64,000 bases of DNA from Phormidium sp. FACHB-1136 (GTDB taxonomy: Bacteria; Cyanobacteriota; Cyanobacteriia; Phormidesmidales; Phormidesmidaceae), in the NCBI RefSeq assembly GCF_014697375.1, contig NZ_JACJRS010000023.1:1-64000 (forward strand), read 5' to 3'. Below are positions 24,446 to 61,103 of this stretch, in pieces. The translations under genes and the position numbers were made by a program. The notes under the pieces are model-generated. The model ran no database searches and was not told the DNA's origin. It was given only the letters and a program-made list of their open reading frames with translations. Within the stretch, counting starts at the first letter, position 1; every line of letters starts with the position of its first letter.

Positions 24446-24976
24446 TTAGACCTTCGCCAGGGTGACCCGTTCGTCCTGGTCTTGATATTTGCCCCGTCGG
24501 GTTTCGTAACTGACCTGACAGGGCTCGCCCTCAAAGAAGATGAGCTGGACAACCCCTTCCCCGGCATAGATGCGGCAGTCGGCACTGGAGGAGTTGGAAA
24601 ACTCTAGGGTGAGATGCCCCCGCCAGCCCGCTTCGGCGGGCGTAAGATTGGCTATTATGCCGCAACGCGCATAAGTAGACTTACCTATACAGATCACACT
24701 GATATTGTCGGGGACAGCGATTCTTTCCAGGGCCACCCCCAGGCCGTAGGAGTGGGCGGGCAGGATGAAGTAGTCGCCCTGGTCGTCGGATTTGAGTTCC
24801 GTGGGTTCGAGATTGGCGGGGCTGAAGTTCTTGGGATCGACCACGGTGCCGGGAATGTGGCGAAAAATACGAAATTCCGCCGGAGATAGACGAATGTCGT
24901 AACCGTAGGAGGAGAGGCCATAGCTAATCACCGGATGCAACCCCGGCACCCCCTCCCGTCCAACGTGGCGCACCAA
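24446..24976 (-). CDS. dcd: dCTP deaminase, N-terminally shortened at island boundary
   Basis: This enzyme deaminates dCTP to dUTP for dTMP synthesis. The Dcd core is intact: Ser-Tyr-Gly-Leu-Ser-Ser-Tyr-Gly-Tyr-Asp, Gly-Lys-Ser-Thr-Tyr-Ala-Arg-Cys-Gly, and Gly-Trp-Arg-Gly-His-Leu-Thr-Leu-Glu-Phe-Ser-Asn with the catalytic Glu, ending in the usual Val-Thr-Leu-Ala-Lys-Val. The beginning is abnormal. Family members start about 15-20 residues earlier with a Lys-Asn-Asp-x-Trp-Ile helix. Here the in-frame codons upstream (Thr-Asp-Ala-Ile-Pro-Phe-Gln-Pro) still recall the family Ile-x-Pro-Phe-x-Pro, but a TAG stop lies 17 codons before and no ATG intervenes. The only starts are TTG 24976 or GTG 24973. 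The break coincides with the A+T-rich island on its 5-prime side. The gene may be damaged, or may be translated from the island transcript. Confidence 0.85.
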   Translation of the reverse strand: MVRHVGREGVPGLHPVISYGLSSYGYDIRLSPAEFRIFRHIPGTVVDPKNFSPANLEPTELKSDDQGDYFILPAHSYGLGVALERIAVPDNISVICIGKSTYARCGIIANLTPAEAGWRGHLTLEFSNSSSADCRIYAGEGVVQLIFFEGEPCQVSYETRRGKYQDQDERVTLAKV

Positions 24977-25024
24977 CCTGGGCTGGAAGGGTATAGCGTC
25001 AGTCCGTAGATTAGTTACTGAGGC

Positions 25025-25462
25025 CTATAACTGCATAGCTCCTGAAAATGCTTTCAGTGCAATTTCCAATTCATCAAAGGCATCTCTTTGTTCTTTGAAA
25101 CGAATCTCAGCAATAATAGTTGGAATCCCTCTTGCAAATCGCGATATAGGTTTCCCTTCCTCATACAGAAGGATGACTGGGATAGCGTAGCACTCAGCAT
25201 AAGCTAGCTCCATGCCTACTCCAAAGGAAGGAATGCCGAGGTAAGCAATAATCAAATCTGATTGCTTTACTTGCGTCTTGTCAATCTCGAATACCCTCTT
25301 GGGGTCAAGATCCTGATTGAAGATAGGATCAGAAACAGTGTGAGGTATGTAGGGATTCAACTGAAGATGCCTACATAATGTTCCAATATCCTCATAGAAT
25401 TTTTTAACTTGATCAGGCTCCTTAATCCCCGTGAGCGCCCCTGACAAATAAACCTTAGACAT
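25025..25462 (-). CDS. Nucleoside 2-deoxyribosyltransferase / dNMP N-glycosidase-like protein
   Basis: A 145-residue protein of the nucleoside 2-deoxyribosyltransferase superfamily, which also contains the DNPH1/RCL hydrolases that cleave the N-glycosidic bond of deoxynucleoside monophosphates. The first strand Val-Tyr-Leu-Ser-Gly-Ala-Leu-Thr-Gly is the sugar-phosphate loop. Ser-Asp-Leu-Ile-Ile-Ala-Tyr is the substrate Asp strand. Ser-Phe-Gly-Val-Gly-Met-Glu-Leu-Ala-Tyr-Ala carries the nucleophilic Glu. AGGAG precedes the ATG. It is the last gene of an A+T-rich four-gene set and lies directly before dcd. Whether it transfers or hydrolyses cannot be told from sequence; context with dCMP deaminase and a ThyA-like protein favours deoxypyrimidine monophosphates as substrate (inference). 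Confidence 0.8.
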   Translation of the reverse strand: MSKVYLSGALTGIKEPDQVKKFYEDIGTLCRHLQLNPYIPHTVSDPIFNQDLDPKRVFEIDKTQVKQSDLIIAYLGIPSFGVGMELAYAECYAIPVILLYEEGKPISRFARGIPTIIAEIRFKEQRDAFDELEIALKAFSGAMQL

Positions 25463-25481
25463 ATCAAAGCTCCTAATATTC

Positions 25482-25559
25482 TTAGGTTATGCAGTGAATT
25501 CGATCTTCATTTTCAACTTTCATTACAGAATCCACAATATCCATAATGTTAGCGCCCAT
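25482..25559 (-). CDS. Possible 25-residue microprotein
   Basis: An ATG starts three bases after the stop of the 414-residue gene and opens a 25-codon frame ending TAA within the 100-base gap before the deoxyribosyltransferase-like gene. The peptide is acidic (Met-Asp-Ile-Val-Asp-Ser-Val-Met-Lys-Val-Glu). Close coupling to the preceding stop would allow reinitiation. It may equally be chance or a remnant. Confidence 0.2.
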   Translation of the reverse strand: MGANIMDIVDSVMKVENEDRIHCIT

Positions 25560-25562
25560 ATA

Positions 25563-26807
25563 TTATCGAGCAACAATCCATTCTACAGTCCCTGATATTT
25601 CTTCACCCTCTGCTACTTCTCCTAAATACTGTACTTGTAAGATGGCCTCCTTCTTCCTGGACTGGGAATTTACAGTACTCTCCTCTTCTGGCAGAACCAC
25701 TTCATAGGTAAGATTAGAGGAAGAGATGCCTTTAAACAGCACATATATAGATACTGATTCATCAGACACTGATTCATCAGACAACAAAAAACTCATAGGG
25801 ATTCTTAGTTCTTCGGTATTTTTCAGACTAGAAAATGCTATTCCAGCTTCTCCAGAAGCCACCACCATGTTCTCTACTTTATCTATCCTAGTATTTAAAG
25901 TATCTAAATCCTTTTGTACTCTTGCCAGGTTGAGTTCAACTTCTCCAATTTCTGCCTCATTAATTCGCAAGTTCTCTGATAGACTACTTAGAGTCTGAAG
26001 TTGAATGTGTAACCTATTTAAAAAAGTTATAGTAACTAGGGCTGCTGTAACGCCGAGACCTTGACATAGTCTCTTGATGAAAGTCTCCCATTCTTGCCTC
26101 GTCAAAGCAATATCTCTCCATGGGATGACGATATTGTCTAACTCCTCAGAACTAATCGGAATCTTCGGCTGTTTATCTTCTTCAAAGTAGTTGTTTGCGA
26201 AATGCTTCCAGTTCCTTCGCCTTTCCCATGTCCCGTCAATCTCGCCCTCTAGATAATGAAATCTAACGGAGCAAAGATTATCTAAATATTTTAGTGTGCA
26301 ACCTCGTCTTGAGAGATTAGACATTCCGATTTGGAGGTTTCCTCTCCACAACGGGTCAATAATCGTAGATACATGGGAAAACCCGACGTCAGTTTTGCTG
26401 ACAGTTGCGCATATTGAAGCACCTACGTCATCTGAAAGCTCTATGTACTCATTTGTAGAGATGACCAGATGTTCTCCAGATGCAACAACTAGTGATTTAA
26501 TTTTTTCAAGCGAGATAACATCCGTCTTGCCATCACGAAATCTACGTCTTTGCAGATTAGTAAGATATTCGATCTTAACGTAGGGGCCAGTATGAAAGTA
26601 CAAGCTGTCGCCCTTAAGAGAGTCAAAAAAGTAATCCCTAATCGCTTTGTCTAAAGCGGTATCATTTTCGTCAGGATCAGGTTTTACGAATATTTTTTGG
26701 CCAATTTTTTCCGATTTTTCTGGATCAAACTGAATGGCGTAATAGGCTATTTTTATCTTGCCACTTCGGATACATTGACAGATTTCCTTTGAAGACATAA
26801 ACGTCAT
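25563..26807 (-). CDS. DCD/dUTPase-fold protein with coiled coil and possible membrane helix
   Basis: A 414-residue protein. Residues 5-190 read like a dCTP deaminase/dUTPase domain: an N-terminal Ser-x-Lys-Glu-Ile helix, then Gly-Glu-His-Leu-Val-Ile-Ser-Thr-Asn-Glu-Tyr-Ile-Glu-Leu, and Ile-Asp-Pro-Leu-Trp-Arg-Gly-Asn-Leu-Gln-Ile-Gly-Met-Ser-Asn at about 150-164. The position of the catalytic Glu of Dcd (Leu-Glu-Phe-x-Asn) is Gly161, so ordinary dCTP deamination is doubtful. A hydrophobic stretch (about 248-266) and a coiled coil (about 268-315) follow, then an about 95-residue beta-rich C-terminal domain. The C-terminal half is not known to me in enzymes of this family. ATG overlaps the stop of the dCMP deaminase gene by four bases. 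A nucleotide sensor or membrane-tethered pool enzyme is possible; function is unproven. Confidence 0.7.
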   Translation of the reverse strand: MTFMSSKEICQCIRSGKIKIAYYAIQFDPEKSEKIGQKIFVKPDPDENDTALDKAIRDYFFDSLKGDSLYFHTGPYVKIEYLTNLQRRRFRDGKTDVISLEKIKSLVVASGEHLVISTNEYIELSDDVGASICATVSKTDVGFSHVSTIIDPLWRGNLQIGMSNLSRRGCTLKYLDNLCSVRFHYLEGEIDGTWERRRNWKHFANNYFEEDKQPKIPISSEELDNIVIPWRDIALTRQEWETFIKRLCQGLGVTAALVTITFLNRLHIQLQTLSSLSENLRINEAEIGEVELNLARVQKDLDTLNTRIDKVENMVVASGEAGIAFSSLKNTEELRIPMSFLLSDESVSDESVSIYVLFKGISSSNLTYEVVLPEEESTVNSQSRKKEAILQVQYLGEVAEGEEISGTVEWIVAR

Positions 26808-27355
26808 AGATCGCCCTCATTGACAGGAGCTAGCTGTAGCTCTGACAGTAATATTTTAGCCATGAATTCTTCTGAGACCTTAGCTTGCCTGAGTTTTATA
26901 AGCCCTTCTAGAACAAAAAAGTCGCGAACTCTTTCCGAGTCTTCATTGCCAAGAGGGGATTCATAGATGATCTCTCGTATACCTGAAGCAATGATCGACT
27001 TCAGACAGGAGAGACAAGGCTCTAAAGTTACATAAATACTAGCGTTGTCAGTACTAACTCCACGTCTAGCGGCTTGAGCAATTGCATTAATCTCGGCATG
27101 AACAGCACGAGAGGGAAGATCTTTGCGATCTGTGCATTTATGCAAGCCCTCGTAGCAATAGCCGAGTTCAAGGCAATGTTCTGAACCCGATGGAGGGCCG
27201 TTATATCCAGTAGCTATGACTTGCTTATCCTTAACGATAACAGCCCCGACAGGTCGAGCTAGACAGGTCGAGCGTGTTGCTGCCAACTTGGCTAACATCA
27301 GAAAATACTCGTCCCATGTCGGTCTAATTCTCTTATTCTGAATCATTAGCTTCAC
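26804..27355 (-). CDS. dCMP deaminase-like zinc enzyme
   Basis: A 183-residue cytidine/deoxycytidylate deaminase. The zinc site is complete: His86-Ala-Glu88 (His ligand and proton-shuttle Glu) and Pro-Cys114-x-x-Cys117. The Gly-Tyr-Asn-Gly-Pro-Pro-Ser-Gly segment and the Cys/His-rich insert (Cys61, Cys67 and Cys74 region) match ComEB-type dCMP deaminases, which often bind a second zinc there. It converts dCMP to dUMP, the thymidylate synthase substrate. It overlaps its neighbours by four bases on both sides, so the set is translated as a coupled operon. Codon use is more A+T-rich than in surrounding housekeeping genes. Confidence 0.88.
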   Translation of the reverse strand: MKLMIQNKRIRPTWDEYFLMLAKLAATRSTCLARPVGAVIVKDKQVIATGYNGPPSGSEHCLELGYCYEGLHKCTDRKDLPSRAVHAEINAIAQAARRGVSTDNASIYVTLEPCLSCLKSIIASGIREIIYESPLGNEDSERVRDFFVLEGLIKLRQAKVSEEFMAKILLSELQLAPVNEGDL

Positions 27356-28905
27356 CGTGTAGTATCTACATCTTGAACATATTCTTCACCCAAAAGTAAT
27401 GCACGTCTTGCCTTTTGAAGCTCTATACCAAGATAGCCAATATGATCGGGGCGAATTGACGGACTATCATTACAAATTTGCCGTACCAAATCAAGTGGTC
27501 GTTTACCAATGTAAGCCTTCACCTCTGTCCCATCATTGCCAGGTGTTGTTCTCAGCACACGGATCTGCTGTTTATTCGCTAATACTTCAATAATGAAATT
27601 GCCCGCAGGATCCCTATAGTACTCGTCATCTTCCGCATTCATCTCCGCCTGGAGAATTTTGGCATATTGGTTGTTGATCAACTGCTCCGCATTTTCCCAA
27701 CAGTCGTCGTAGATGTGAGCACTTTGGCTAATAGTAATGAGGCAACCTAGCTTCAGTTTATACTTGCCTAAGTCATCCCGGCCTGAGGTTCTTTGAACTA
27801 TGGAATCTCTGATTTCCTTCTGTAGAGCACGTAATCCAAACGCATTAGCTGGCCATGCGGAGAACATATCATTACTTCGGAATAGAGCGGTTAAAGTTAG
27901 TTCACCTTCTAGAACCCTGAGCCAAATATGGTTTAGGCATGGGCTTCCCCCGACTTCATGATCCCGGACATCCCATAGTGACATAACAGCACTCGCTGCA
28001 TCTATTTCACTGATTAATTTCTCAATGACTTGTTCTACCTGATCTACTCCAAACCAAGAGCGAAGTCGCTGGCCGTAGGTATATTTTACGCCCTCAACTA
28101 CTGGGGAATCTTCTAAAATCTGAGGAAGATACGCATTGATAGAATCTTGATCGCAGGGCAGGTAATTTGGGTCAGGTATGCAGATTTTTTTAGGGTCTTC
28201 AACCTCATGAGTTACTACAGCCATCAGGTTAATGAGTTCCTGAAGCTGCCCATCATAACCAGTTGGACGCATAACCCCTGTGGTTTTAATTCGGTGAATA
28301 ATCTTAACCCATGTCTCTGCAATTGTTTTTCCTTCTATTCGATGGCCATATAATTCGCCAGGAAGCACATCCGGCTCCTTGATCTCCAAAGGGAAGTCAC
28401 ACGGAGAACCCCAAGGCTCAACTGGAGGGCGACTAGCATAGTACTTCGTAGCACTAATTGCCTCTTGCAGGGTTTCAACCTCCTTCCATTCAATAGCCTC
28501 TCTTAGAGTCTCTAGAGCCTTCTGATCGACCTCAATATCAATATTGCCCTTAATGCTAGAACGTATAACCCAGCAAGGACGGTTAGTATCGCTATATCCT
28601 TTCTCAAAGCCGTATTGAAAAAAGTCCGCCAAACATCTCTGGCTACCGGAACTGCTGTCTTCCCTTGTCGCATTTAGTATGACAAGAAAACGTACATGAG
28701 GATTTAGTAGAAGGTTACGAATTAGAAGGTTAATACCCCTAGTTGGACTATATAGTTGGCCAATAACGGCGAAATCCTCCGGGTTAAGGTGTTTGGCTAC
28801 GATTTTCTTGACAGTCCAGCCTGTAATTACTGCCGTTTGTCCTTTCCCACAAATAAGTTGGTTTGGCTTATGTTCTGGTCTGTACGTAAACTCTCCCGGA
28901 CGCAT
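27352..28905 (-). CDS. Thymidylate synthase-like protein fused to an MtrA/DUF4346-like N-terminal domain
   Basis: A 517-residue protein, first gene of the island. Residues 1-110 (Gly-Lys-Gly-Gln, Val-Ile-Thr-Gly-Trp-Thr, Leu-Tyr-Ser-Pro-Thr-Arg-Gly-Ile-Asn-Leu-Leu-Ile-Arg-Asn) resemble the MtrA-type domain found fused to some ThyA homologues; this part is recognised with less certainty. From about 185 a ThyA-like fold follows with Tyr-Gly-Gln-Arg-Leu-Arg, the catalytic Cys323 in Ser-Pro-Cys, Arg-Ser-Asn-Asp at 343-346, Asn354 and His397-Ile-Tyr399. Asn354 aligns with the Asn that selects dUMP in thymidylate synthase (Asp in dCMP hydroxymethylases), so a dUMP-type substrate is favoured. The start has GGAGG six bases upstream. 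It is much longer than ordinary ThyA (about 264 residues). Confidence 0.75.
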   Translation of the reverse strand: MRPGEFTYRPEHKPNQLICGKGQTAVITGWTVKKIVAKHLNPEDFAVIGQLYSPTRGINLLIRNLLLNPHVRFLVILNATREDSSSGSQRCLADFFQYGFEKGYSDTNRPCWVIRSSIKGNIDIEVDQKALETLREAIEWKEVETLQEAISATKYYASRPPVEPWGSPCDFPLEIKEPDVLPGELYGHRIEGKTIAETWVKIIHRIKTTGVMRPTGYDGQLQELINLMAVVTHEVEDPKKICIPDPNYLPCDQDSINAYLPQILEDSPVVEGVKYTYGQRLRSWFGVDQVEQVIEKLISEIDAASAVMSLWDVRDHEVGGSPCLNHIWLRVLEGELTLTALFRSNDMFSAWPANAFGLRALQKEIRDSIVQRTSGRDDLGKYKLKLGCLITISQSAHIYDDCWENAEQLINNQYAKILQAEMNAEDDEYYRDPAGNFIIEVLANKQQIRVLRTTPGNDGTEVKAYIGKRPLDLVRQICNDSPSIRPDHIGYLGIELQKARRALLLGEEYVQDVDTTR

Positions 28906-29150
28906 TGCTACCCTCCTCTTAGGGACTTTGTAACTTTACAAGGAGTGGGCTAACATGGCAATCCTAGCTTGAATAAGGTTATCAGTACAGCACAGCCTTA
29001 TAAAAGTCACTATGGATTGAGGCTCCAGTGAGGTTAGATAGGCGACAGTTTGAATTTCTCGATGGGGTTGGAATCCTCACATCAGACTCTGGGAACCCCA
29101 GGCGAGTTTATAGGTATAGGTGCCCCCCTTCAGCCCTGAATCAAGATGCT

Positions 29151-29196
29151 TTCAAGATTCTTGAAGCTTGTACTACACGAGTATATCAAGAATCTT
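29151..29196. promoter_or_regulatory. Palindrome pair upstream of the nucleotide island
   Basis: TTCAAGATTCTTGAA (29151-29165) is a perfect palindrome about a central T. Twenty bases on, TCAAGAATCTT (29186-29196) repeats the complementary half. They lie about 250 bases upstream of the ThyA-like gene and just after the end of the P-loop gene, so they may be an operator, a terminator for the P-loop gene, or the island end. The rest of 28906-29236 holds no gene. Confidence 0.4.
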
Positions 29197-29236
29197 AAGC
29201 CGTCATAAAGAGATATACACTTTAACCCTCAACCAT

Positions 29237-29791
29237 TCAAATCGGGATATTGCGCCGAAGTTCCGTCACCTGATCCGCCACCTTTAGCAGCGATTCCGGC
29301 ATTTCTGGGCCAGTGAGGATGATATCGATCTGGGGTGGACGGTGGCGCAATAGGTCAACCACCTCGTCGGCGACAATTAGGTTGTAGTGGACGGCAAGGC
29401 TGAGTTCATCCAGCACCACCAGCCCGTAGCGGCCCTTATTGACCACCGCCTGGGTATGTTGCCACAGATCGGCCACGGCCTGTCGGGCCTCTGGGCTGGC
29501 CGGGGCTTCATGGATGCAGTAGGGCAGGGCACAGCGAACCCAGTCTAGGTTTTGGCCAAGCTGCATGGGGTTCTCTGGGCCTTGATCCATCCCGCCCTTG
29601 AGAAACTGCACGATGAGGACGGGTTTACCCTGTTCGGCGGTGCGCAGGGCTTGCACCATCACATTGGTAAAAAAGCTGCGATGAACCGAGGTATACACCT
29701 GTACCGTTCCCTCAATGGCTTGGAGCAAGGGATGGCGCAGCACGGTGGGGGACGACGGGGAAAAGCCCGTCACTTTGAGTTGGGAGACCAT
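29237..29791 (-). CDS. CobO/BtuR-like P-loop family protein with degenerate Walker A
   Basis: From ATG 29791 (184 residues) the protein follows the cob(I)alamin adenosyltransferase CobO pattern: Val-Leu-Ile-Val-Gln-Phe-Leu-Lys-Gly-Gly, Leu-Val-Val-Leu-Asp-Glu-Leu (Walker B) and Ile-Ile-Leu-Thr-Gly-Pro-Glu-Met-Pro near the end. The Walker A position reads Val-Tyr-Thr-Ser-Val-His-Arg-Ser-Phe-Phe-Thr, without the Gly-Lys-Thr/Ser needed for normal ATP binding. I recall a conserved cyanobacterial family with this feature, so it is probably not a decaying gene. Activity as an adenosyltransferase is doubtful. It is divergent from rph. Confidence 0.75.
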   Translation of the reverse strand: MVSQLKVTGFSPSSPTVLRHPLLQAIEGTVQVYTSVHRSFFTNVMVQALRTAEQGKPVLIVQFLKGGMDQGPENPMQLGQNLDWVRCALPYCIHEAPASPEARQAVADLWQHTQAVVNKGRYGLVVLDELSLAVHYNLIVADEVVDLLRHRPPQIDIILTGPEMPESLLKVADQVTELRRNIPI

Positions 29792-29979
29792 CAGACAGGG
29801 GCGGGGGACGGTGAAAAACGCTGGGCTAAATATAGCGTACTTTCTGGGTCTTACACGGTTCTCTAACGCCATATGTAATGAGAATTGATGGAGCCCTGAT
29901 CCCCAGGATGGGGTGAAAAATTCCGCCCAAGCCCAGCCGCCTGCTGTATTCTAGGGGACGACCCATTTCCCTGGTATCT

Positions 29980-49759: not shown

Positions 49760-50257
49760 ATGGCAGAACTGAATACACCCATTGCTCCCAGTAGTTTTTA
49801 TTTGGAGATTAAGGGAATTGCCGAAGGGGAAGAAGCGATCTTTAAGAGCGTTAATATTCCCAACTACCAGCCTAAAGTCCAAGGTGGACAACAGGCCGTA
49901 GGCACTACTAAGGGTGGCAAAACTATTTGGCAGGTCAACTCAGCAGGCTTTGAAGGCTTATTTAACTTTGACTGTGTCTGTATCGCCAGCGGCGATGGGT
50001 CGAGCACCAGTGTCAAAATGTATAAGTGGTTTGAGGAATGCTTACCTGCTTCCAATGGGGGTAAAAGCAAATGGCGAGACAGCACCAAGGAAGGTAGTAT
50101 CACCGCCTATGATACTGATGGCAAAGAGGTGGCTCGTTGGGACTTCCTAGTAGCTTGGCCCTCTAAATACAAGTGTGCCGATCTAGATATCACCACCGAT
50201 AGCTACATTGAGGAAACCTATACCATTACCTGCGAAAAGTTTAACCGAACGAAGTAG
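49760..50257 (+). CDS. Tube protein 1 (gp19/Hcp-like)
   Basis: A 165-residue inner-tube family protein (T4 gp19/Afp1-like). It starts Ser-Ser-Phe-Tyr-Leu-Glu-Ile and has the strand Glu-Gly-Ser-Ile-Thr-Ala-Tyr-Asp-Thr-Asp-Gly-Lys-Glu and a C-terminal Glu-Thr-Tyr-Thr-Ile-Thr-Cys-Glu strand. AGGAGGA lies nine bases upstream of ATG. Codon use differs little from the sheath. It is probably a main tube subunit together with the next gene. Confidence 0.87.
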   Translation: MAELNTPIAPSSFYLEIKGIAEGEEAIFKSVNIPNYQPKVQGGQQAVGTTKGGKTIWQVNSAGFEGLFNFDCVCIASGDGSSTSVKMYKWFEECLPASNGGKSKWRDSTKEGSITAYDTDGKEVARWDFLVAWPSKYKCADLDITTDSYIEETYTITCEKFNRTK

Positions 50258-50299
50258 TAGGGATGTGAGTACTTGGTGTTATTTGAGGAATAACTGATC

Positions 50300-50782
50300 A
50301 TGGTTCAGTATTTAACCAGCTCGCGATTTTACTTTGAAATTGATGGCGTCACCAGTTTGTTCGTCAAAAAGGTGAGTGGCCCTTCCATTTCGCTCAAGGT
50401 GGCCGGGGGGGATGCCGCCATTGGCGTCTCCAAGGATGCCAAAACCCAGACCCAGGCGACCATTGGTGGTGTGGAGTATGATTCTCGGATCACACTCACC
50501 TACGTAGGGGGGAACGAATCCGACCAAAAGAAACTTTACGATTGGTACAACAAATGCCACGTTGATACCTATTCTGGCGGCGGTTCTGAGGCCACCAAAA
50601 GCCGAAAAACCGGATCCTTAGTGATTTACGATCCAGACGGTAAAGAAGCCATGCGCTTTAACTTCACGGATCTATTTCCCGGTACGGCAACTCAAATTAA
50701 CTCCCTCTCCGTGGATAGTGGTGGACAACTAGCGGAAGATAGCCTAGAGCTATACTTTACTCAGGTAACTCGCAAGGTATAG
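50300..50782 (+). CDS. Tube protein 2 (gp19/Hcp-like)
   Basis: A 160-residue gp19-like protein starting Leu-Thr-Ser-Ser-Arg-Phe-Tyr-Phe-Glu-Ile, with Ser-Leu-Val-Ile-Tyr-Asp-Pro-Asp-Gly-Lys-Glu and a C-terminal Leu-Glu-Leu-Tyr-Phe-Thr-Gln-Val. It is a tandem paralogue of the previous gene, 42 bases away. The Lys-Val-Ser-Gly-Pro-Ser region is the place where eCIS tube proteins pack between rings. Confidence 0.85.
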   Translation: MVQYLTSSRFYFEIDGVTSLFVKKVSGPSISLKVAGGDAAIGVSKDAKTQTQATIGGVEYDSRITLTYVGGNESDQKKLYDWYNKCHVDTYSGGGSEATKSRKTGSLVIYDPDGKEAMRFNFTDLFPGTATQINSLSVDSGGQLAEDSLELYFTQVTRKV

Positions 50783-50793
50783 GAAACCAAACC

Positions 50794-51291
50794 ATGCTAG
50801 CCTTTCCAGAAATTCTCACCAGCGCCCGGTTCTACCTAGAGATCAAACTCGACGGCAGCACCGATAGCGTGGACGGAATTTTTATGGATTGTAGTGGCTT
50901 CCAGTCGTCCCAAGATGTCATCGAAATTAGTGAGGTAACGCCCCAACTTTGGGGCAAAAATGGCGATTCTAAGGGGCGAGTGATCCGAACTAAGTTGCCA
51001 GGAAATTCCACCTATACCAACCTCACCCTGCGGCGAGGACTCACCACCTCCATGACCCTCTGGAATTGGCTGGATAAGGTGCAATCCGGTCAATGGGCCG
51101 ACCAACGTCGGGATGGCTCCCTAGTCATCTACAACCAAGCGGGAGAAGAACAATTTCGGTTCACCTTTGAACGCGCTTGGCCCATGCGCTACAAAATCTC
51201 CGACCTCGACGTTAAAAGCGGCGACTTTAACATCGAAGAAATGGAAATTGTCGTGGAATCCCTCAAACGCTCCGGAGTCAAACCCACCTAA
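50794..51291 (+). CDS. Tube/tube-initiator protein 3 (Afp5-like)
   Basis: A 165-residue gp19-family protein, with Thr-Ser-Ala-Arg-Phe-Tyr-Leu-Glu-Ile, Cys-Ser-Gly-Phe-Gln, a Leu-Thr-Leu-Arg-Arg-Gly-Leu-Thr strand and Ser-Leu-Val-Ile-Tyr-Asn-Gln-Ala-Gly-Glu. The Leu-Arg-Arg-Gly and Cys-Ser-Gly marks are shared with the gene at 52748 and are typical of the second tube type (Afp5/Pvc5), which joins the tube to the baseplate. It starts 11 bases after the previous gene. Confidence 0.85.
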   Translation: MLAFPEILTSARFYLEIKLDGSTDSVDGIFMDCSGFQSSQDVIEISEVTPQLWGKNGDSKGRVIRTKLPGNSTYTNLTLRRGLTTSMTLWNWLDKVQSGQWADQRRDGSLVIYNQAGEEQFRFTFERAWPMRYKISDLDVKSGDFNIEEMEIVVESLKRSGVKPT

Positions 51292-51295
51292 CGTA

Positions 51296-51342
51296 GGTGC
51301 ATAACGCCAAGGCGAGGCTTTGCCAACGCGAAGCAATGCACC
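51296..51342. repeat. GGTGCAT...ATGCACC hairpin inside the eCIS operon
   Basis: GGTGCAT (51296-51302) and ATGCACC (51336-51342) bracket gccaaggcgaggctttgcc, itself partly self-complementary. It resembles the widespread cyanobacterial ggtgcgtt-type palindromes. In this operon position it could cut down read-through or stabilise the upstream tube mRNA. Confidence 0.65.
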
Positions 51343-51378
51343 ACCGATAACGCTCAACTCCACAAGGCTAGGTGACCG

Positions 51379-51807
51379 ATGGCCATACAAATGAGCAACA
51401 ACCTGAACTTGCCCCCCGTGGTCAAATCTGCCCCGGCCCAGCCCTCGGTTGCGTCGGGGTCTGTGGCCTCTGTGGCCTCTGCGCCAGCCTCGCCCGCTAC
51501 CCCACAACCTGGGTCAATTCAGCTAGAATTCGCCTTTGAACTACCCAAGGGCTACCTAGACAGTACCGGAAACTGCCATCGACAGGGAATTATGCGCCTC
51601 GCCAAAGCCATGGACGAAATTGTGCCCATGCGCGATCCCAGGGTGCGGGCCAACCCCGCCTACGCCACAGTGCTGATTCTGTCGCGGGTGATCACCCGCC
51701 TCGGTACCCTCCCTGAAGTCTCACCCTTGGTGATCGAAGACCTCTTCGCCTGCGACCTCGACTACCTGCAACGCTTCTACCGCCACATCAACGATCTCAC
51801 CCCCTAG
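51379..51807 (+). CDS. Small eCIS assembly-type protein A
   Basis: 142 residues. The first 45 are low-complexity Pro/Ala/Ser/Val. The conserved part begins Leu-Glu-Phe-Ala-Phe-Glu-Leu-Pro-Lys-Gly-Tyr and contains Arg-Gln-Gly-Ile-Met-Arg-Leu-Ala, Leu-Ser-Arg-Val-Ile-Thr-Arg-Leu-Gly, and Ile-Glu-Asp-Leu-Phe. It resembles the small helical tail-assembly proteins located between tube and hub genes in phage-like systems. The next gene is a clear paralogue. Exact role unknown. Confidence 0.65.
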   Translation: MAIQMSNNLNLPPVVKSAPAQPSVASGSVASVASAPASPATPQPGSIQLEFAFELPKGYLDSTGNCHRQGIMRLAKAMDEIVPMRDPRVRANPAYATVLILSRVITRLGTLPEVSPLVIEDLFACDLDYLQRFYRHINDLTP

Positions 51808-51855
51808 TCACGCCTCTCGATTTTCTCTTCCCGACTCTCGACTCTCGACTCCCCC

Positions 51856-52233
51856 ATGCCCTCCCCCCTCCCCCCCACTGAATTTCCCTTTGAACTCCCC
51901 CGTGGCCTCGTGGGGGCCGATGGCGTCCTGCATCGGCGGGGGGTAATGCGACTGGCCACCGCCCGCGACGAGATGACGGTAGCGCGAAACCGCACCGCCC
52001 AGGCTCAACCGGGCTATGGGGATTTGGTCATGCTTTCCCAGGTCATCACCCGTCTCGGCAATCTGGGCAATCTCACCCCTGCTTGTTTGGAAGACCTATT
52101 TACCGTAGATTTGGCCTACTTGCGTGAGTTCTATAACCGCATCAACCAGTCAGGAGAAGTTCACCTTCCGGCCCAATGCCCCCAATGCCAACACGTTTTT
52201 CATCTAGAACTTGCCCTGGCGGGGGAGTGGTAA
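51856..52233 (+). CDS. Small eCIS assembly-type protein B with partial zinc ribbon
   Basis: 125 residues, paralogous to the previous gene over about 85 residues (Phe-Glu-Leu-Pro-Arg-Gly, His-Arg-Arg-Gly-Val-Met-Arg-Leu-Ala, Leu-Ser-Gln-Val-Ile-Thr-Arg-Leu-Gly, Leu-Glu-Asp-Leu-Phe, and Phe-Tyr-Asn-Arg-Ile-Asn). It lacks the low-complexity head but adds a tail with Cys-Pro-Gln-Cys-Gln-His and a later His, a possible small metal site. The 48 bases separating the two genes contain three gactctc direct repeats. The next gene begins inside its last codons. Confidence 0.65.
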   Translation: MPSPLPPTEFPFELPRGLVGADGVLHRRGVMRLATARDEMTVARNRTAQAQPGYGDLVMLSQVITRLGNLGNLTPACLEDLFTVDLAYLREFYNRINQSGEVHLPAQCPQCQHVFHLELALAGEW

Positions 52234-52370
52234 GCTACCCCGCCGCCGACCTGCAAGCGGAGGTAGCCTTTTTATCCATGCAGGTTCACTGGACGCTGGA
52301 GGAAATCCTGACCCTAGAACACCGTGATCGCAACCGCTGGATTGACCAAATCAACGACCTTACCGAATAG
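52227..52370 (+). CDS. DUF6760 eCIS microprotein
   Basis: A 47-residue protein starting at GTG 52227, which overlaps the end of the previous gene in another frame. The sequence Val-Val-Ser-Tyr-Pro-Ala-Ala-Asp-Leu-Gln-Ala-Glu-Val-Ala-Phe, then Phe/His-Trp-x-Leu-Glu-Glu-Ile-Leu-x-Leu-Glu-His and Arg-Trp-Ile-x-x-Ile, matches the DUF6760 pattern encoded in many eCIS and phage-tail-like clusters at this position, just before the hub genes. It is probably a small baseplate or assembly factor (inference). Its size makes it easily missed. Confidence 0.7.
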   Translation: MVSYPAADLQAEVAFLSMQVHWTLEEILTLEHRDRNRWIDQINDLTE

Positions 52371-52436
52371 CCCCAATCCCCTGGACGGACACACGGCGGC
52401 ACGTCCCCACCCAACCCCGGCGAGACCCTAACTGCC

Positions 52437-52679
52437 ATGGCAAACCACCAAAACCTCACAGATCTTACCAGCCAGTTCCCCACAGTGCCCAACCCTGCTC
52501 AAGGATCTACCCCCATCGGGACACCATTACTCCACACCGACGCTCTCACCAACGAAGACCGAGCGACCATCAGCCAACTCGCTGCCGAAATCCTAGACGA
52601 CCCCATCGCTCTCCAGCACCTCTGCGACCACATCTATACCCTCCTCCAAACAGACCTTTTCCGCCAACGAACCCGTTAA
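52437..52679 (+). CDS. Small hypothetical eCIS protein
   Basis: 80 residues, unrecognised. The N-terminal half is polar and Thr/Pro-rich. The C-terminal half is one or two helices (Asn-Glu-Asp-Arg-Ala-Thr-Ile-Ser-Gln-Leu-Ala-Ala-Glu-Ile-Leu, then His-Ile-Tyr-Thr-Leu-Leu-Gln). It sits inside the eCIS operon between the DUF6760 gene and the fourth tube-family gene, so a small assembly role is likely. Confidence 0.55.
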   Translation: MANHQNLTDLTSQFPTVPNPAQGSTPIGTPLLHTDALTNEDRATISQLAAEILDDPIALQHLCDHIYTLLQTDLFRQRTR

Positions 52680-52747
52680 TTTTCTATTAGGACGTATGTC
52701 GTATTTTCTAATCCGCCCCTAACCGCTAAGAGCCAATAACCAAAACC

Positions 52748-53305
52748 ATGCCACCCCCCTCTTCCACCAATGCCAAAAACGGAGCCGACACCTTTGGGCT
52801 CAACTACGTCACCTCCAACCGTTTTTATGTGGAAATCGAGAGCCAAATCACGGCTTCCTTTAGCGAGTGCAGTGGCCTAGGTGTGCAAATTAAAAAAGAA
52901 ATCCTAATGGAAGGGGGAGTGAACGAACAGCAACGAATTTTGTTAGGGCCAGCGGAATTTTCCGACGTTACCCTACGGCGCGGCCTCAGCAATGATCCTG
53001 TTTTTTGGGACTGGATTTCGCCTCTCCTGACCCAGCGATCCGGCAGTAGCAATCCGCCTAGTTACCGTCGCAATATCAACATTTTACTGTTCAACCAAGC
53101 GGGCGAAACAATGCAGTGCTGGACGCTGATTGGGGCCGTTCCAATTAGTTGGAAAGCCCCCACCCTCCAGGCCGATTCCTCCACCGTAGCTCTTGAAGAA
53201 CTGACCCTTGCCTACGAGGGGTTGAAAGTCGTCTTCAAAGGTAGCAGTGGCGGCGCATCTACCAATCTTCGGCGCGATGCCTCCGGCTATTTTTCTAGCA
53301 ACTAA
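52748..53305 (+). CDS. Tube-family protein 4 (Afp5-like)
   Basis: 185 residues. It has Thr-Ser-Asn-Arg-Phe-Tyr-Val-Glu-Ile-Glu, Phe-Ser-Glu-Cys-Ser-Gly-Leu, Val-Thr-Leu-Arg-Arg-Gly-Leu-Ser and Leu-Phe-Asn-Gln-Ala-Gly-Glu, the marks of gp19-type tube proteins that adapt tube to baseplate. A 20-residue Gly/Ser-rich tail is extra. It starts 68 bases after the previous small gene and ends 21 bases before the giant gene. Confidence 0.82.
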   Translation: MPPPSSTNAKNGADTFGLNYVTSNRFYVEIESQITASFSECSGLGVQIKKEILMEGGVNEQQRILLGPAEFSDVTLRRGLSNDPVFWDWISPLLTQRSGSSNPPSYRRNINILLFNQAGETMQCWTLIGAVPISWKAPTLQADSSTVALEELTLAYEGLKVVFKGSSGGASTNLRRDASGYFSSN

Positions 53306-53326
53306 TTCCCCATTCTCTCTGTGCCA

Positions 53327-56300
53327 ATGGTCGATTCCCTCGCCGCCGCCGCCAATCAACCCCTGGGTCATCACCAGCCTCTCGGTGTACGTACCCTGGG
53401 CGTGCTCGACCTAGCCTACTTTTTTCCGGCTGGCCTTCCCGATATCGAACCTCTCACCGAAGAGGCCACCCCCACCGCTGAGCATCCCCTCATCAACAGA
53501 AAATCCACATCAGAAAAGGCTCTACCAGAGAACGTTTCCTCAACATCTGACCATCCTGTTATCTCAATAAATGCTCCAGGTGAGAACGTCTCCTCAGCTT
53601 CCACTCCCACCTCTGAATATCCTCTCATACCAAATCCGAATCAGAGAAACCCGATTCTCAACCCGTCAAATCGTAGGGGTGAGGTCTCCTTGCCCGCTGA
53701 TTCAGGACATATTCTCCCAGCGTCCGCACCTCGCTTAGTGAACAGACAATCTGCACCGAAAAATATCCCTTCAATCCCTACTCCAACGTCTGAGAATCCC
53801 CTCATTCAAAGCCATTCATCCTCGGAAAGCACCCCACCGTCTCCAACCACACCCAATGACACATCTCTAGAAAGCCTCTTCCACCCCCAGCCCAATACCA
53901 AAATCCAGCCAACCCCAGGGACAGAAAACCACCCTCTAGCAGGGCACGATCATTTGCCTGTTGTGATTGATTTCTCCACCCCACCCACTCCTCTGCAAAC
54001 ACAGCAGGCAAATGAAAGTGGTTTTTCTTCCCAACCAGAGACAGCGTTAGAAGTAACGTCTGATTCTAATCCTGGATATTCTATTTCTCTTCAATCAAAC
54101 CAAACCATTGCAAAAAACGATTATTTCTCGGTCGAATCGTTGCAAGAGACGCCTAAGGATGTCATTAATTCAGAGATTGAACATCACTCAGATGCCTTAA
54201 ATAGACTAGATACTCCAGAACCTTTACCTCAATCCAGTCAAGTCTCCTCTAAAATCATCCACCGTTCCAGCGAAGAACCTATTACAGTACCGCTAACACC
54301 TGAGACCCAATCAGAAACATTAGACACACAATCCAGCGCTACTCCATTCAATGATGAAAGCCAACCTCAGTCATCATTATCGAATACGACCGTTCAGAGA
54401 TCTAGCGCAATTCACCCAACCTTCCCAACCGATTCTATATCTGGTCACGTATCAGATGTTCCAGATCCTAAAACTTCACCTATAGATGAAGAACTGGGAG
54501 CTGAAATCATTCCAAATTTTAGCAATAGTGATGCGATCTTCTCAGCAGATGCTATATCTACATCTCTAGTAGATTTATTAGATATCAACATATTGCCAAA
54601 GTCCGAAGAAATTCATCCTTCTACAAATATTAAAAAGTCAGATGAGGTTGGCTTTGTTCCTAGTGAAAATCCTACATTTGACTCTGCAGCGAATATCACA
54701 AAAGCTGAAGTCATCCCAAGAAATGAAGTTATTTCATCTGAAATTATTCAAAAATTAGATGAACCTAATTCTACCTTTTTCACAAGTCCTGAAGCTCTGC
54801 CTAGAACAGATAAAACATCATCATCATCCATTGAAAATATCCAAAGATCTAGCGAGAAGTGTTCCTCTTCTTTGGCAGATACTACATCAGTACTGATAGC
54901 TGACTCTCCAAATCCTCAAAACTTACTAAGGCATGGAGTAACACTACCTCAAAGTGTTCAAAGCCCTAACGATAATAATAGTGACCTCTCATCGGCAGCT
55001 ATGTCAGCATCTATGACAGAGCTACCAAACTCAGAAAATCCACTAATTCCTGAAGACTCATGGCCTCAAAGTATTCAAAGATCTAGTGATGTAGCGTCCG
55101 ATCTCCTATCGGATGCTACATCAGCACCCATGACAGATTCTCCAAATCCAGAAGATTCACTAAGGCATGGAGAGACATTACCTCAAAGTGTTCAAAGGTC
55201 TAACGATAATAATATCGGCCTCTCATCGGATGCTACATCAGCACCCATGACAGAGATCCCAAGCCCAGAAGACTCGTTAAGACCTAGGGAAACGTGGTCT
55301 CAAAATATTCAAAGATCTAGTGATGATAACTCCGATCTCTTATTGGATGCTACATCGGCATCTATGGCAGATTCTCCAAATTCAGAAAATTCACTAAGGC
55401 ATAGAGAGACATTGCCTCAAAGTGTTCAAAGGTCTAACGATAATAATATCGGCCTCTCATCGGATGCTACATCATCATCTATAACAGAGTCCCCAAGTCC
55501 AGAAAACCCACTAATGCCTGGGAACTCATGGCCTCAAAATATTCAAAGATCTAGTGATGTAGCGTCCGATCTCCTATCGGATGCTACATCAGCACCTATG
55601 GAAGATTCTTCGGGGTCAGAAAATTCGCTAATGCATGGGAAAACATTACCTCAAGGTGTTCAGAAGACTGGTGATATAGCATCCAATCTGTCATCGGATA
55701 CTACATCGACAGCAATGACAAATTTTCAAAGCTTGGAGAACCCATTAAAGGCTGATGATAAAGAAGCATCGCTTTTAAGAATACCAAGATATCAGAAGAG
55801 CAATCCCGGCTTCATAATCGATGCAGAATCTGCTTCTATAGTCAATCCTCCAAGCTTTGAGGATTTAGCAAAAGCTGGACAGTTATCACCTCAAAATATT
55901 CAAAAAGAAAGTGATGATAATTTCAGTTCCTTAGTAAATCCGATATCAATAGCTGCAACAGATTTTCTCAGCGCTGAAACTCGACCCAATACTGAATACT
56001 CATCACCTGAGCATATTCAAAGATCTAGTCAAAATAATCCTGCTTCCCCAAAAGATTTTCTAGAAAACTCCCTCAATTCTGAGGTTCTGCCAAAAGGGGT
56101 GACAAGACTGTCTGAGGTTATTCAGAGGGTAGGTGAGAAAAATCCCGTTATTTCGCTAGGTCAAGTACCTGAATCTGCTAGTAATTTTCTTAATTCTAAA
56201 ATTCTGTCTGGGATTGAGGTATCCTCTCCTGAAAAAAAACAGCGATCTAGTGAAGACTATTTTACTTCTCCCGAAAATCCTACCTCTAAACCTGCGGCGA

Positions 56301-59300
56301 GTTCCCTGATTCCTGAAGGTGCCCAAAAAGCTGAGATGGCATCATCTGAAAATATCCAAAAACTGAGTGATGACAGTTCTCTCTTCTCCGCAGGTTCTAT
56401 GCCTTCACCTCAAGCAGATACTACGCCAGCACTTACCGCAGATCTTGCCAACCCTGAAGTTCCATCCAAGGTTGAAAAATCATCAACTGTCGGTGTTCAG
56501 AGAATCAGTGAGAACACGACTAACTTTGCAGGAGATTCCACATCAATATCTCCAGATAAGATATTTACAAACCATTCTTTGAGTTCTGATACTCTTCCAA
56601 AATCTGAGGAATCAATACCTGAAATAATCCAGAGATCTAGTGAACAGAAATTCACGCTTTCAGAAGATTTGATATCTTCAGCAAATTTTTCAACTTTTGA
56701 AGTCACTCCAATTTCTATCCCTTCACAAAAATCTAAAGATTCACAAAAAACTGAATCCACATTTCCTGAAGGTATTCAGACATCCAGCGAGAGCCGTGCG
56801 GTCTTCTCTACAGATTCTATCTCTACACCCACAGCAGAGTCCTTGATTTCTGAGAATCTACCCAGATCTGAAACATTACCCTCTGAAAATGTTCAAAGAA
56901 CAAATGATAGTCCGCTAGCATTATTATCAGATGCTCTAGCAACATCTAAGATGAATTCGCCTAGTTCTGAGGTTGGACTCAAGGCTTTTGGATCAGACAA
57001 TTCTATCCCCTCAACCGAACTCATACCCACATCCACAACAGATTCTCTAAATCCAGAAAGTCTATCAGTTCCTAGAGCACTATCTCCTGAAGGTGTGCAG
57101 AGATTTAGCGAGGCTGGTCTTTTCTTCCCCTCTGATTCTAAACCTGAGCCCATAGAGGCTTCTTTAAGCTCTGAAGTTCTATCAGAGGATAATGAAACAT
57201 TGCTTGATAGCCTTCAGAAATCGAATGATAACTATCCTGAGCCCAAAGAGGAGGATGAGATATTACTTGCTAGCCTTCAGCTATCGAATGATAGTTATCC
57301 CGAGTCCAGAGCAGGGGCTATATCCTCACCAATAGAAAACCCTCTAACTGTTGAAAGTCTGAGAAGTTCTGAGGAAGTACAGCCTGAAATCATCCAGAGA
57401 TCTGGTGAAAGCAATATATTATTTACACCAGATCTTATATCTGAACCTACAACAGAGTTAGCCATCAATAAGACTATATCAGAGATTAAATCATCATCAC
57501 CTGAAAGTATTCAGAGAGTGGGGAAGAGCAATCCTGATCTTATAAAAAGTACTATTTCTAAACCTACGTTAGAATTTCCAGGCCATAAAACCTCAACTGA
57601 AGTAAAAGAATCATTCCTTGAAAGTGTTCAGGGACAAAGTACTCAGGGACAAAGTACTCAGGAAATCAATGAGAGTAATCTTACATTTCCCTCATCCGCT
57701 GTATCAGCATCTCCATTAGATTCTCTAGCTTCTGATGTTCAACCCAGGACTCAATCAGGGACTGAAGAATTAGCCCATGACAATATTCAGAGATCTGTTA
57801 GTAATGATCTCACGTCCACCACAGATCCTATATCGGGTTCTACAGCGAATGCTACCAGGGTCGAGATCGCCCCAAAAGTTCAGGACACAATCTCAGATTC
57901 TTCATCAACACCTGCAAGAAAAATACTGAGTTCTGAAATTCTTCCCAGGTCTGAGGAAGAAACGACTGAAGGACTACAAAGATCTAGTGCCAATAGTCTT
58001 ATGTCTTCAGAATATTCTGCATCTTTACCTGAGATGCCTTCCCCAACCGTTGAGGTTTCTCCGACTTCTGAAGCTTTACAAAAAGCTGACTCAACATTAC
58101 CTGAGAGCATTCAGACACCCAGCGAGAGTAGTTCTGAATTTTCTGCCGATTCTATATCTGTACCCATAACAGAGTTATTGAGCTCTGAGGCTCTTCTCAA
58201 GACTGAAATATTATCTTCTGAAAACATTCAAGAAAGTAGGGAAAATAGCACTAATATTTCAGCAAACTCCATATTCACACCTGTAGAAAATGATTCTAGG
58301 TCTGAAGCTTCACCCAGTTTTAAAGAATTGTTGATTGGAAGTATTCAACGGTCTGCTGAGGCTCATATCACTTCTTCAAAAGATTTTGGGTCTACGGACA
58401 ATTTTCTGCAATCAGAGGTTCTACCGAACATTGAAAATTTAGTCCCTAACAATATTCAAAAATCAAGTGAACATTGTGATAGCTACTTAGTAGACGAGAT
58501 AGTTGAACCTCCTGTCGCTTCTCAAACTCCTGAAACCCTACCAGGGGCTGAGGCGATATCGTCTAGCAGCAGTCTGGCATCTGGCAAAAAGGGTGCTAAT
58601 TTTCTGGCAACTTCCAGTTCAGCATCCACAACCGACTCTCTAGGGTTTGATAGTTCACCTAGAACAAGTAATTTTTTACCTGAAAGAGTTCAGAGGCTTG
58701 ATGAAATCAACTCCGTCGGCTCTCTAAGTCCTGAAGTTCAGGCTATAACTGGGGAAGGATTATCTGAACCTATCCAGCGATCTAGCCATGACAGTCCTAT
58801 CTTTTTCTTAGAGAGTCTATCTGCGGCTAGAGAAGATACCCTCAATACTGAAATCCTGACAGATGAAAGAGAACTATTATCTCAAAATCCTCAACTCTCA
58901 GGTGAGGTGTATTCTGACATCTCTTCAGCTTCTAAGACACTTTCAAGGGCTGAAGCAATATCTCCTGGATCTGAGCGAAGATCGCCTGACAGCATTCAGC
59001 GATCTAATGAGTACTATGCTAACTCCTCAATGAATGAATTATCAGAACCTACGGTAGCCTCTTTCAGTTCCGATAATCTATTGCAACCAGGTGAAGTATT
59101 ATCTAACAGTGCCCTAGTCAATAATCCTGATGAAGGCGGAAGCTATAGCGTTCGAGGAATCGATATAGCCTCCTTAGGGGAGCAGCTTGTACGACCTCAA
59201 TCATTGCCCAGCAGCTCTGTACAACGAAACCTTGATCGAAGTGCAGTTCATTCATCACAAGCGTGGCCTAATCAACGGGAATCACCAAAGAATCTATTCC

Positions 59301-60646: not shown

Positions 60647-60656
60647 TGTTAATACT

Positions 60657-61103
60657 ATGACTAATCCCATTAAAGCAAAACTCATTGCACGGGAAGGAAA
60701 CAGTACGATTGATACCATCGAGTTTATGTTTAACCCGACGGAGTTGAATTTTGATCGTACGGTTAACCTCAACTCATCTCCTGGTTCTCGGACGGATTCT
60801 GGTGTGCCTAAAATTAGTTTTGGCTCTCCAGAACCTTGGCGACTAACCATTAGCAATATTGTTTTTGACACCTACGAAAGTGGCGGCAATGTCTACACGG
60901 AATATATCAGCAAATTTAGACAGGCTGTTGAGTTTTTAGATGGGAAAGATCGACCACCGATTTACGTCTTTACCTGGGGTAGTCAGGAATATCTGCGCTG
61001 TTTCGTACAGTCTCTAAACTATAAACTCACCCTATTTTTACCTGATGGTACCCCCGTACGTAGCGTCGTCAACCTCACCTTGGTGGAAGTGGCTTCGCTA
61101 TAG
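60657..61103 (+). CDS. CIS tube/hub adaptor protein (Afp7/Pvc7 N-terminal type)
   Basis: 148 residues, with Thr-Ile-Glu-Phe-Met-Phe-Asn-Pro-Thr-Glu-Leu-Asn-Phe-Asp near the start and Pro-Pro-Ile-Tyr-Val-Phe-Thr-Trp-Gly and Phe-Val-Gln-Ser-Leu-Asn-Tyr-Lys further on. This is the pattern of the contractile-injection-system tube protein N-terminal domain that links tube to spike hub. Afp7 usually carries a LysM domain after this; here the protein stops, so the LysM part is missing or encoded elsewhere. It is the last eCIS gene in the window, 10 bases after the giant gene. Confidence 0.83.
   Translation: MTNPIKAKLIAREGNSTIDTIEFMFNPTELNFDRTVNLNSSPGSRTDSGVPKISFGSPEPWRLTISNIVFDTYESGGNVYTEYISKFRQAVEFLDGKDRPPIYVFTWGSQEYLRCFVQSLNYKLTLFLPDGTPVRSVVNLTLVEVASL

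Follow-up and report, generated by a model that had tools for sequence, protein, structure and literature searches.

A probable horizontally acquired thymidylate-synthesis cassette truncating dcd in the cyanobacterium Phormidium sp. FACHB-1136

Two thymidylate synthases split the cyanobacteria: presence counts tabulated for 31 of them give 8 with ThyA and 23 with ThyX, and the exclusion of one by the other in this phylum is already published (PMC5954106); the passages of that study covered here mention neither a synthase fusion, nor a link to a deaminase, nor dcd. In Gram-positives and eukaryotes, a deoxycytidine monophosphate (dCMP) deaminase feeds thymidylate synthase on the route to deoxythymidine triphosphate, and in some eukaryotes it coexists with deoxycytidine triphosphate (dCTP) deaminase, according to the parts of PMC10733785 consulted. 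In this study, we describe a four-gene island in a stretch of 64,000 nucleotides from Phormidium sp. FACHB-1136 (assembly GCF_014697375.1, contig NZ_JACJRS010000023.1, positions 1 to 64,000; hereafter the window, from genome G000). It encodes a fused ThyA-type synthase, a predicted dCMP deaminase, a protein of the DCD/dUTPase fold and a protein resembling the nucleotide N-glycosidase DNPH1. As in the published ThyA/ThyX replacement, two synthases divide the cyanobacteria studied here, and as in the route of Gram-positives and eukaryotes a dCMP deaminase would feed thymidylate synthase. The island differs from that route in being cyanobacterial, in forming a linked cassette with DCD-fold and DNPH1-like genes, and in standing in place of dcd, the dCTP deaminase gene; unlike in some eukaryotes, Dcd and dCMP deaminase nearly exclude each other in these cyanobacteria. 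The gene set, the displacement of dcd and the fusion were not found described in the open-access literature searched.

The island is very probably a horizontally acquired cassette for deoxythymidine monophosphate (dTMP) synthesis that displaces dcd and replaces the route through Dcd and then ThyX, rather than the defence system that the initial annotation had considered. Its features are as follows.

24992..29249, no strand: inserted segment of about 4258 bp, from BLASTN against a relative, GC (guanine-plus-cytosine) content and the position of btuR beside dcd in relatives
27352..28905, minus strand: fused thymidylate synthase, 517 amino acids (aa), from Pfam and NCBIfam profiles, a structure model and alignment
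26804..27355, minus strand: predicted dCMP deaminase, 183 aa, from profiles and a zinc motif
25563..26807, minus strand: DCD/dUTPase-fold protein, 414 aa, from profiles and fold comparison
25025..25462, minus strand: DNPH1-like putative nucleotide N-glycosidase, 145 aa, with a Pfam score just under the cut-off
24446..24976, minus strand: native dcd (dCTP deaminase), truncated at its 5' end, from alignment to a genus relative
29237..29872, minus strand: btuR (cobalamin adenosyltransferase), native flank with its last codons altered at the junction, from a profile and BLASTN

We infer the enzyme activities from sequence. The deaminase would convert dCMP to deoxyuridine monophosphate (dUMP) and the fused ThyA-type synthase would convert dUMP to dTMP, so that together they would replace the standard cyanobacterial route of Dcd followed by ThyX. 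More tentatively, the DCD-fold protein may handle deoxyuridine triphosphate (dUTP) or serve as a non-catalytic deoxynucleotide sensor, and the DNPH1-like protein may remove surplus or abnormal deoxyuridylate; pool sanitation by these two, also raised in the initial annotation, is thus possible. As chemistry, the synthase and deaminase genes are ordinary; what is unusual is the fusion, the two attached genes and the capture of the locus in mid-exchange.

The cassette was inserted between btuR and dcd, with loss of the 5' end of the latter. In BLASTN comparison with the closest relative (G014, locus L004; G labels denote genomes and L labels loci), homology ends at window position 29250, in the last btuR codons, and resumes at 24991, inside dcd. 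About 203 bp of native DNA, comprising the last btuR codons, the intergenic region and the dcd 5' end, has been swapped for about 4258 bp. GC content is 0.424 within 24992-29249 and 0.578 over the remainder of window positions 1-53000, and the sliding window of insert size with the lowest GC in that range begins at about 25000. The initial annotation had read the A+T-rich block as a sign of transfer, and both the composition and the insertion relative to the genus loci bear this out; its span of 24446-28905 caught a real four-gene island but took in the native truncated dcd, the insert proper being about 24992-29249. Open reading frames (ORFs) and profiles likewise agree with the four minus-strand genes and domains it had named: the first two junctions within the cassette are 4-base overlaps and the third is a 100-base gap. 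The flanking genes tested (btuR, RNase PH, an Fe-S protein and an aspartokinase-like protein) are housekeeping genes.

Comparison with 16 genus mates shows the prior state. The btuR/dcd locus was fetched for 12 of them (L004-L015), and in all 12 btuR immediately precedes dcd in the same orientation; dcd was found in three further mates, for which no locus was fetched. A ThyA-family synthase is present in none of the 16, and a protein search with the window DCD-fold protein gave no match in them. The Dcd of G014 has 199 aa and begins MIKND. In the window, the first 18 codons are replaced by the insert and the earliest remaining in-frame start is a TTG at codon 24; the predicted product is thus 23 residues short. 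Its 176 residues share 97 % identity with the G014 protein, and we infer that the truncated Dcd is impaired. As dcd is truncated and a ThyX gene split in an intein-like manner remains, the genome seems caught halfway through the exchange: the cassette, a damaged dcd and a ThyX that has yet to be lost coexist in it, giving a view of one essential pathway as it displaces another.

Two genomes show a separate irregularity of dcd. G008 (C1:2206486-2208318) and G009 (C63:3564-5279) each have a full-length dcd of divergent sequence (72 % identity) and, after it, a 3' fragment of the usual gene (75-83 %), which looks like a swap of dcd itself. The 3' piece of G009 contains stops; in G008, a more sensitive family search detected a 253-aa DCD-domain frame beside dcd, between both dcd parts.

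Presence and absence were compared in a panel of 78 genomes by six-frame searches with a loose first pass. The ThyA-family fused synthase occurs in 40 genomes (39 strong matches and G024), among which ThyX is found in two, G000 and G152; 37 of the 38 genomes lacking the synthase have ThyX, the exception being G025. The deaminase gives a strong match in 24 genomes. dcd is present in all 54 genomes without it, counting insert-split open frames in G001, G152 and G180, and is intact in one of the 24 with it. In the latter, dcd is truncated in G000, G286 has three dcd-like copies at other places, only weaker DCD-like proteins were matched in G255 and G259, some genomes have matches that are dut genes or DCD-fold genes of the cluster, and the others have none. 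Fisher tests give p of about 1e-18 for each exclusion, values uncorrected for the relatedness of the 78 genomes or for the picking of some through their synthase match. This genome-wide anti-correlation with ThyX and Dcd supports a pattern of metabolic replacement. In G019, which is outside the panel, synthase and deaminase are adjacent and dcd gave no match.

Several of the old genes carry insertions of their own. The ThyX of G000 (C213:10021-12003, outside the window) is one open frame of 690 aa whose family-matching halves lie about 1.3 kb apart, in an intein-like manner, and split ThyX matches also occur in G001, G007, G046, G239, G080, G084, G109 and G102. A large in-frame insert splits dcd in G001 (C117:4229-5470), G152 (C8), G180 (C332), L154 (6224-7957) and L161 (10901-11956), near residue 128 in G001, L154 and L161. 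These dcd frames are open throughout, and the inserts are therefore likely inteins; a cyanophage dCTP deaminase that contains an intein has been published (PMC6293099).

The cluster recurs across the phylum. A sample of 292 cyanobacterial genomes gave a synthase match in 42, three of them weak fragments, leaving 39 strong loci with the window included; the deaminase is nearby at 16 of these and all four families are present at 10. A second, partly overlapping scan of title-bearing genomes gave 172 relatives of the synthase, of which 80 were kept for locus counts (Nostoc, Anabaena, Calothrix, Microcystis, Microcoleus, Moorena and others). The deaminase is present at 53 of these loci and dcd at 15, L112 alone having both; 25 loci have all four families. 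Five of the 80 have a DCD-fold gene but no deaminase (one of them, L145, lies at the edge of its contig), and two, L094 and L121, have a glycosidase but no DCD-fold gene. Cluster GC is below flank GC in 19 of the 20 loci with all four ORFs called. The gene order of the window (synthase, deaminase, DCD-fold, glycosidase) is repeated at L054, L058 and eight named-genome loci, while other loci combine the synthase with a dUTPase and the deaminase, some after a thymidylate-kinase-like gene named by eye; the dUTPase was confirmed in G158, G172, G207, G292 and G088. The four families are therefore linked in many genomes and not scattered housekeeping genes, although the context in which they co-occur is that of metabolism and not, as the initial annotation had suggested checking, of defence islands. 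All 80 named loci are cyanobacterial by title except one, L163, a metagenome-assembled genome titled Tatlockia, in which synthase, dcd and btuR are neighbours as they are in cyanobacterial loci; this contig is probably mislabelled or contaminated.

Loci without the deaminase often read synthase, dcd, btuR, and those with it read synthase, deaminase, btuR, in some cases with the accessory pair between deaminase and btuR. None of the 28 loci with both the deaminase and btuR has a complete dcd. L112 (Calothrix brevissima NIES-22) retains about 28 codons from the 5' end of dcd next to btuR, and at L092 the sole dcd-like match is the DCD-fold gene. Since the 5' end is lost in the window and a 5' remnant persists at L112, two lineages show dcd broken at different ends.

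The fused synthase comprises an N domain (about 1-160), a ThyA-type core (about 190-421) and a PterinBD-DUF4346 C domain (432-512). Its Pfam match to Thymidylat_synt (PF00303) scores 47.2 bits against a cut-off of 24.3, and the N domain weakly resembles MtrA (NF002126, 18.6 bits, E 0.0011), not reaching the cut-off of 161. The structure model has a predicted local distance difference test score (pLDDT) of 90, and in the comparison of the core (183-421) with solved folds the L. casei enzyme superposes with a root-mean-square deviation of 2.5 over 204 residues; the output is filled by ThyA core matches, so the N and C domains are barely covered. Across 51 sequences from cells and viral contigs, aligned to solved synthases, C323, R343, S344, D346, N354, H397 and Y399 are invariant; they correspond to the catalytic Cys, the Arg-Ser-x-Asp motif, the uracil-selecting Asn and the His-x-Tyr motif of ThyA. 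The enzyme resembles the methanogen-type ThyA (TIGR03283) over residues 190-404 and keeps the ThyA catalytic residues, but it scores 130.2 bits, below that family's cut-off of 174.55, has an extra N domain and the PterinBD-DUF4346 C domain, and occurs mostly in genomes without FolA.

ThyA yields dihydrofolate, which is recycled by a reductase, as stated in the part of PMC5954106 covered here. FolA (PF00186) is strong in 7 of the 40 genomes with the synthase, weak in 2 and without a match in 31; in the 38 of these without ThyX, the figures are 6, 2 and 30. Of 41 genomes tested for FolM, none had a match above the cut-off and all had weaker matches of its broad family. In a comparative study, the Prochlorococcus reductase is marked as predicted but missing (PMC1971073). 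Either cyanobacteria have an unrecognised reductase, which is possible, or the added domains, which are conserved, have a new function. On the second alternative, the synthase would be a dihydrofolate-reductase-independent ThyA whose added domains bind or recycle the pterin and make FolA dispensable; it would replace ThyX in FolA-less cells and spread between cyanobacteria and viruses, while the DCD-fold and DNPH1-like proteins would form a second unit that controls deoxyuridine nucleotides and compensates for the lost Dcd. We regard this fuller scheme as conceivable, though doubtful.

Relatives of the fused synthase were found on 88 viral contigs, 80 of which were kept. At L206, the gene has a RusA-like nuclease and the two subunits of ribonucleotide reductase in its vicinity, and at L241 it directly follows a dUTPase. 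Of 70 full-length viral synthases in the tree, 39 form a single clade and the others fall into 13 smaller groups, which is consistent with several exchanges. The window synthase groups with the viral L202 and with L166 at a support of 0.38, the next node having 0.5; given this low support, no donor is named. In isolated phages, synthase matches were partial, none covering 80 %. A viral source of the whole cassette was considered and rejected: the deaminase is beside the synthase in 4 of the 80 viral loci, and the two accessory genes have no match in these loci, several of which are short. When viral sequences were scanned with the alignment of the glycosidase, 17 candidates came up and none was confirmed, and a plasmid search gave no match for the DCD-fold protein.

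The DCD-fold protein is the most divergent member of the cassette. Pfam DCD scores 27.0 bits, at the cut-off of 27, and Pfam dUTPase 12.3 bits, under its cut-off of 22; structure comparison likewise suggests a Dcd/dUTPase-like fold, from a model with an overall confidence of just 66. Mean column identity is 28 % in this family against 68-78 % for its cassette neighbours. None of the 28 aligned members has an acidic residue at the column of the Dcd catalytic Glu (E138 in E. coli). The column was set by profile alignment to solved Dcd proteins, and a direct profile comparison with dcd gave the same stretch at 12 % probability. The nearest solved relatives by profile and fold are Dcd, Dcd-dUTPase enzymes and a Thermococcus dUTPase (PDB 8y1w, the best, profile E 5.6e-26), from which this family differs by an extra C-terminal part that is membrane-anchored in most members. 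As 8y1w also lacks the Glu at the deaminase position, the loss argues only against a Dcd-type deaminase. The catalytic Asp of trimeric dUTPases is kept in 12 of the 28 members, the window protein among them, and is Asn in 16, while the first Ser of the dUTPase RSS motif aligns with Val in 27 of 28. On these alignments, the protein is not a Dcd-type deaminase and may be either a dUTPase or a non-catalytic binder. The membrane association claimed in the initial annotation fits the family, in which 25 of 28 members have a C-terminal membrane segment by hydropathy, but not the window protein itself, whose highest 19-residue mean is 1.31, with none above 1.6.

Several observations weigh against a displacement of the old route by the cassette. 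ThyX is kept in G000, making the synthase step redundant there, and G152 also has both enzymes. The G000 assembly is in 260 contigs, although a family search in it gave no other canonical dcd, and the genus mate G005 (outside the panel) has neither a dcd match nor a synthase. G286 combines the deaminase with three dcd-like genes, G255 and G259 pair the deaminase with weaker DCD-like matches, G082 has a deaminase match with one internal stop and ThyX but no synthase and no dcd, and G025 has neither synthase. The accessory genes are absent from many genomes with synthase and deaminase, and DCD-fold proteins adjoin dcd without a deaminase at L069, L070, L073 and L077. Finally, the window synthase has the most departures from conserved columns among the 39 (11/166; next 9/163), which could mean drift or changed function. 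These departures, together with the retained ThyX and a DCD-fold protein that is unusually long and has no clear membrane segment, would suit a neutral or decaying import without function here, kept by chance beside a broken dcd. Four open frames, intact catalytic residues in synthase and deaminase, and preserved gene overlaps speak against it, and we consider such an import improbable.

Metabolic displacement is also favored over defence by the deaminase. Its zinc motif, H86-A-E88 ... P113-C114-x2-C117, has H86, E88, C114 and C117 invariant in 12 deaminases; Pfam places it with the cytidine/dCMP deaminases, it matches the solved dCMP deaminase 2hvv (E 2.9e-31), and the ComEB equivalog TIGR02571 gives 125.2 bits, below its cut-off of 219.45. 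In a defence system, the deaminase and DCD-fold protein would deplete or reshape deoxycytidine and deoxyuridine pools at infection and the glycosidase would add toxicity; the frequent membrane segment of the DCD-fold relatives, their divergence (15-29 % identity to the window protein) and the viral copies of the synthase could be read in this sense. The anti-phage dCTP deaminase has the zinc deaminase domain in common with the window protein, but its profiles have 437 and 630 positions against 183 aa, and NF041025 gives 107.4 bits, far from the required 400. PADLOC returned a single match, to the deaminase part of its dCTPase profile (best stretch 82-131), and none for the other three proteins. 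With housekeeping flanks and the genome-wide exclusion of dcd and ThyX besides, a role in defence is highly unlikely.

The DNPH1-like protein scores 28.4 bits with Nuc_deoxyrib_tr (PF05014), just under the cut-off of 28.8. Its weak relatives are Rcl/DNPH1 (best E 2.3e-4), BlsM and CMP (cytidine monophosphate) N-glycosidase, with which it has the SxGVGxE region in common, overall similarity being weak; the candidate catalytic Glu85, in S79-F-G-V-G-M-E85, is invariant in 10 members. DNPH1 cleaves 5-hydroxymethyl-dUMP and, slowly, other deoxynucleoside monophosphates, according to the part of PMC10483697 consulted. A role in deoxypyrimidine metabolism, claimed for all four genes in the initial annotation, is supported. 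The alternative of base modification, also raised there, or of a nucleoside product, in which the synthase would be a hydroxymethylase and the glycosidase would free a modified base, as in MilA and MilB, draws on fold matches that rank AfhB, a dCMP hydroxylase of a phage (Z 22.7), and MilA (Z 20.6) above L. casei thymidylate synthase (Z 19.6) and on the BlsM and CMP N-glycosidase relatives, but it is very improbable given that the base-selecting residue is Asn in 51 of 51 synthases and Asp in MilA, that exclusion with ThyX suits dTMP synthesis, and that the glycosidase occurs in just 10 of the 78 genomes against 40 for the synthase.

In all 10 glycosidase genomes, the DCD-fold protein and deaminase are at the synthase locus and a strong dut is absent; a strong dut occurs in 15 of the 78 genomes overall. 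The accessory pair was considered as a dUTPase stand-in, but a strong dut is also missing from most genomes without the glycosidase, so its absence alone shows little. In G286 (C210:17333-17458), a 3' dUTPase piece lies between the glycosidase and deaminase of the cluster, which is no more than suggestive of such a stand-in. In G098 (C20:26478-26600), a short glycosidase remnant with a stop lies upstream of the deaminase in addition to a full copy, a sign of shuffling within the cluster.

The window has a second A+T-rich stretch at about 54-61 kb. In it lies a repetitive ORF of 2441 aa (53321-60646), which is surrounded, within 49760-61103, by tail-tube proteins of the T4 gp19 type and by a tube protein of a contractile injection system.

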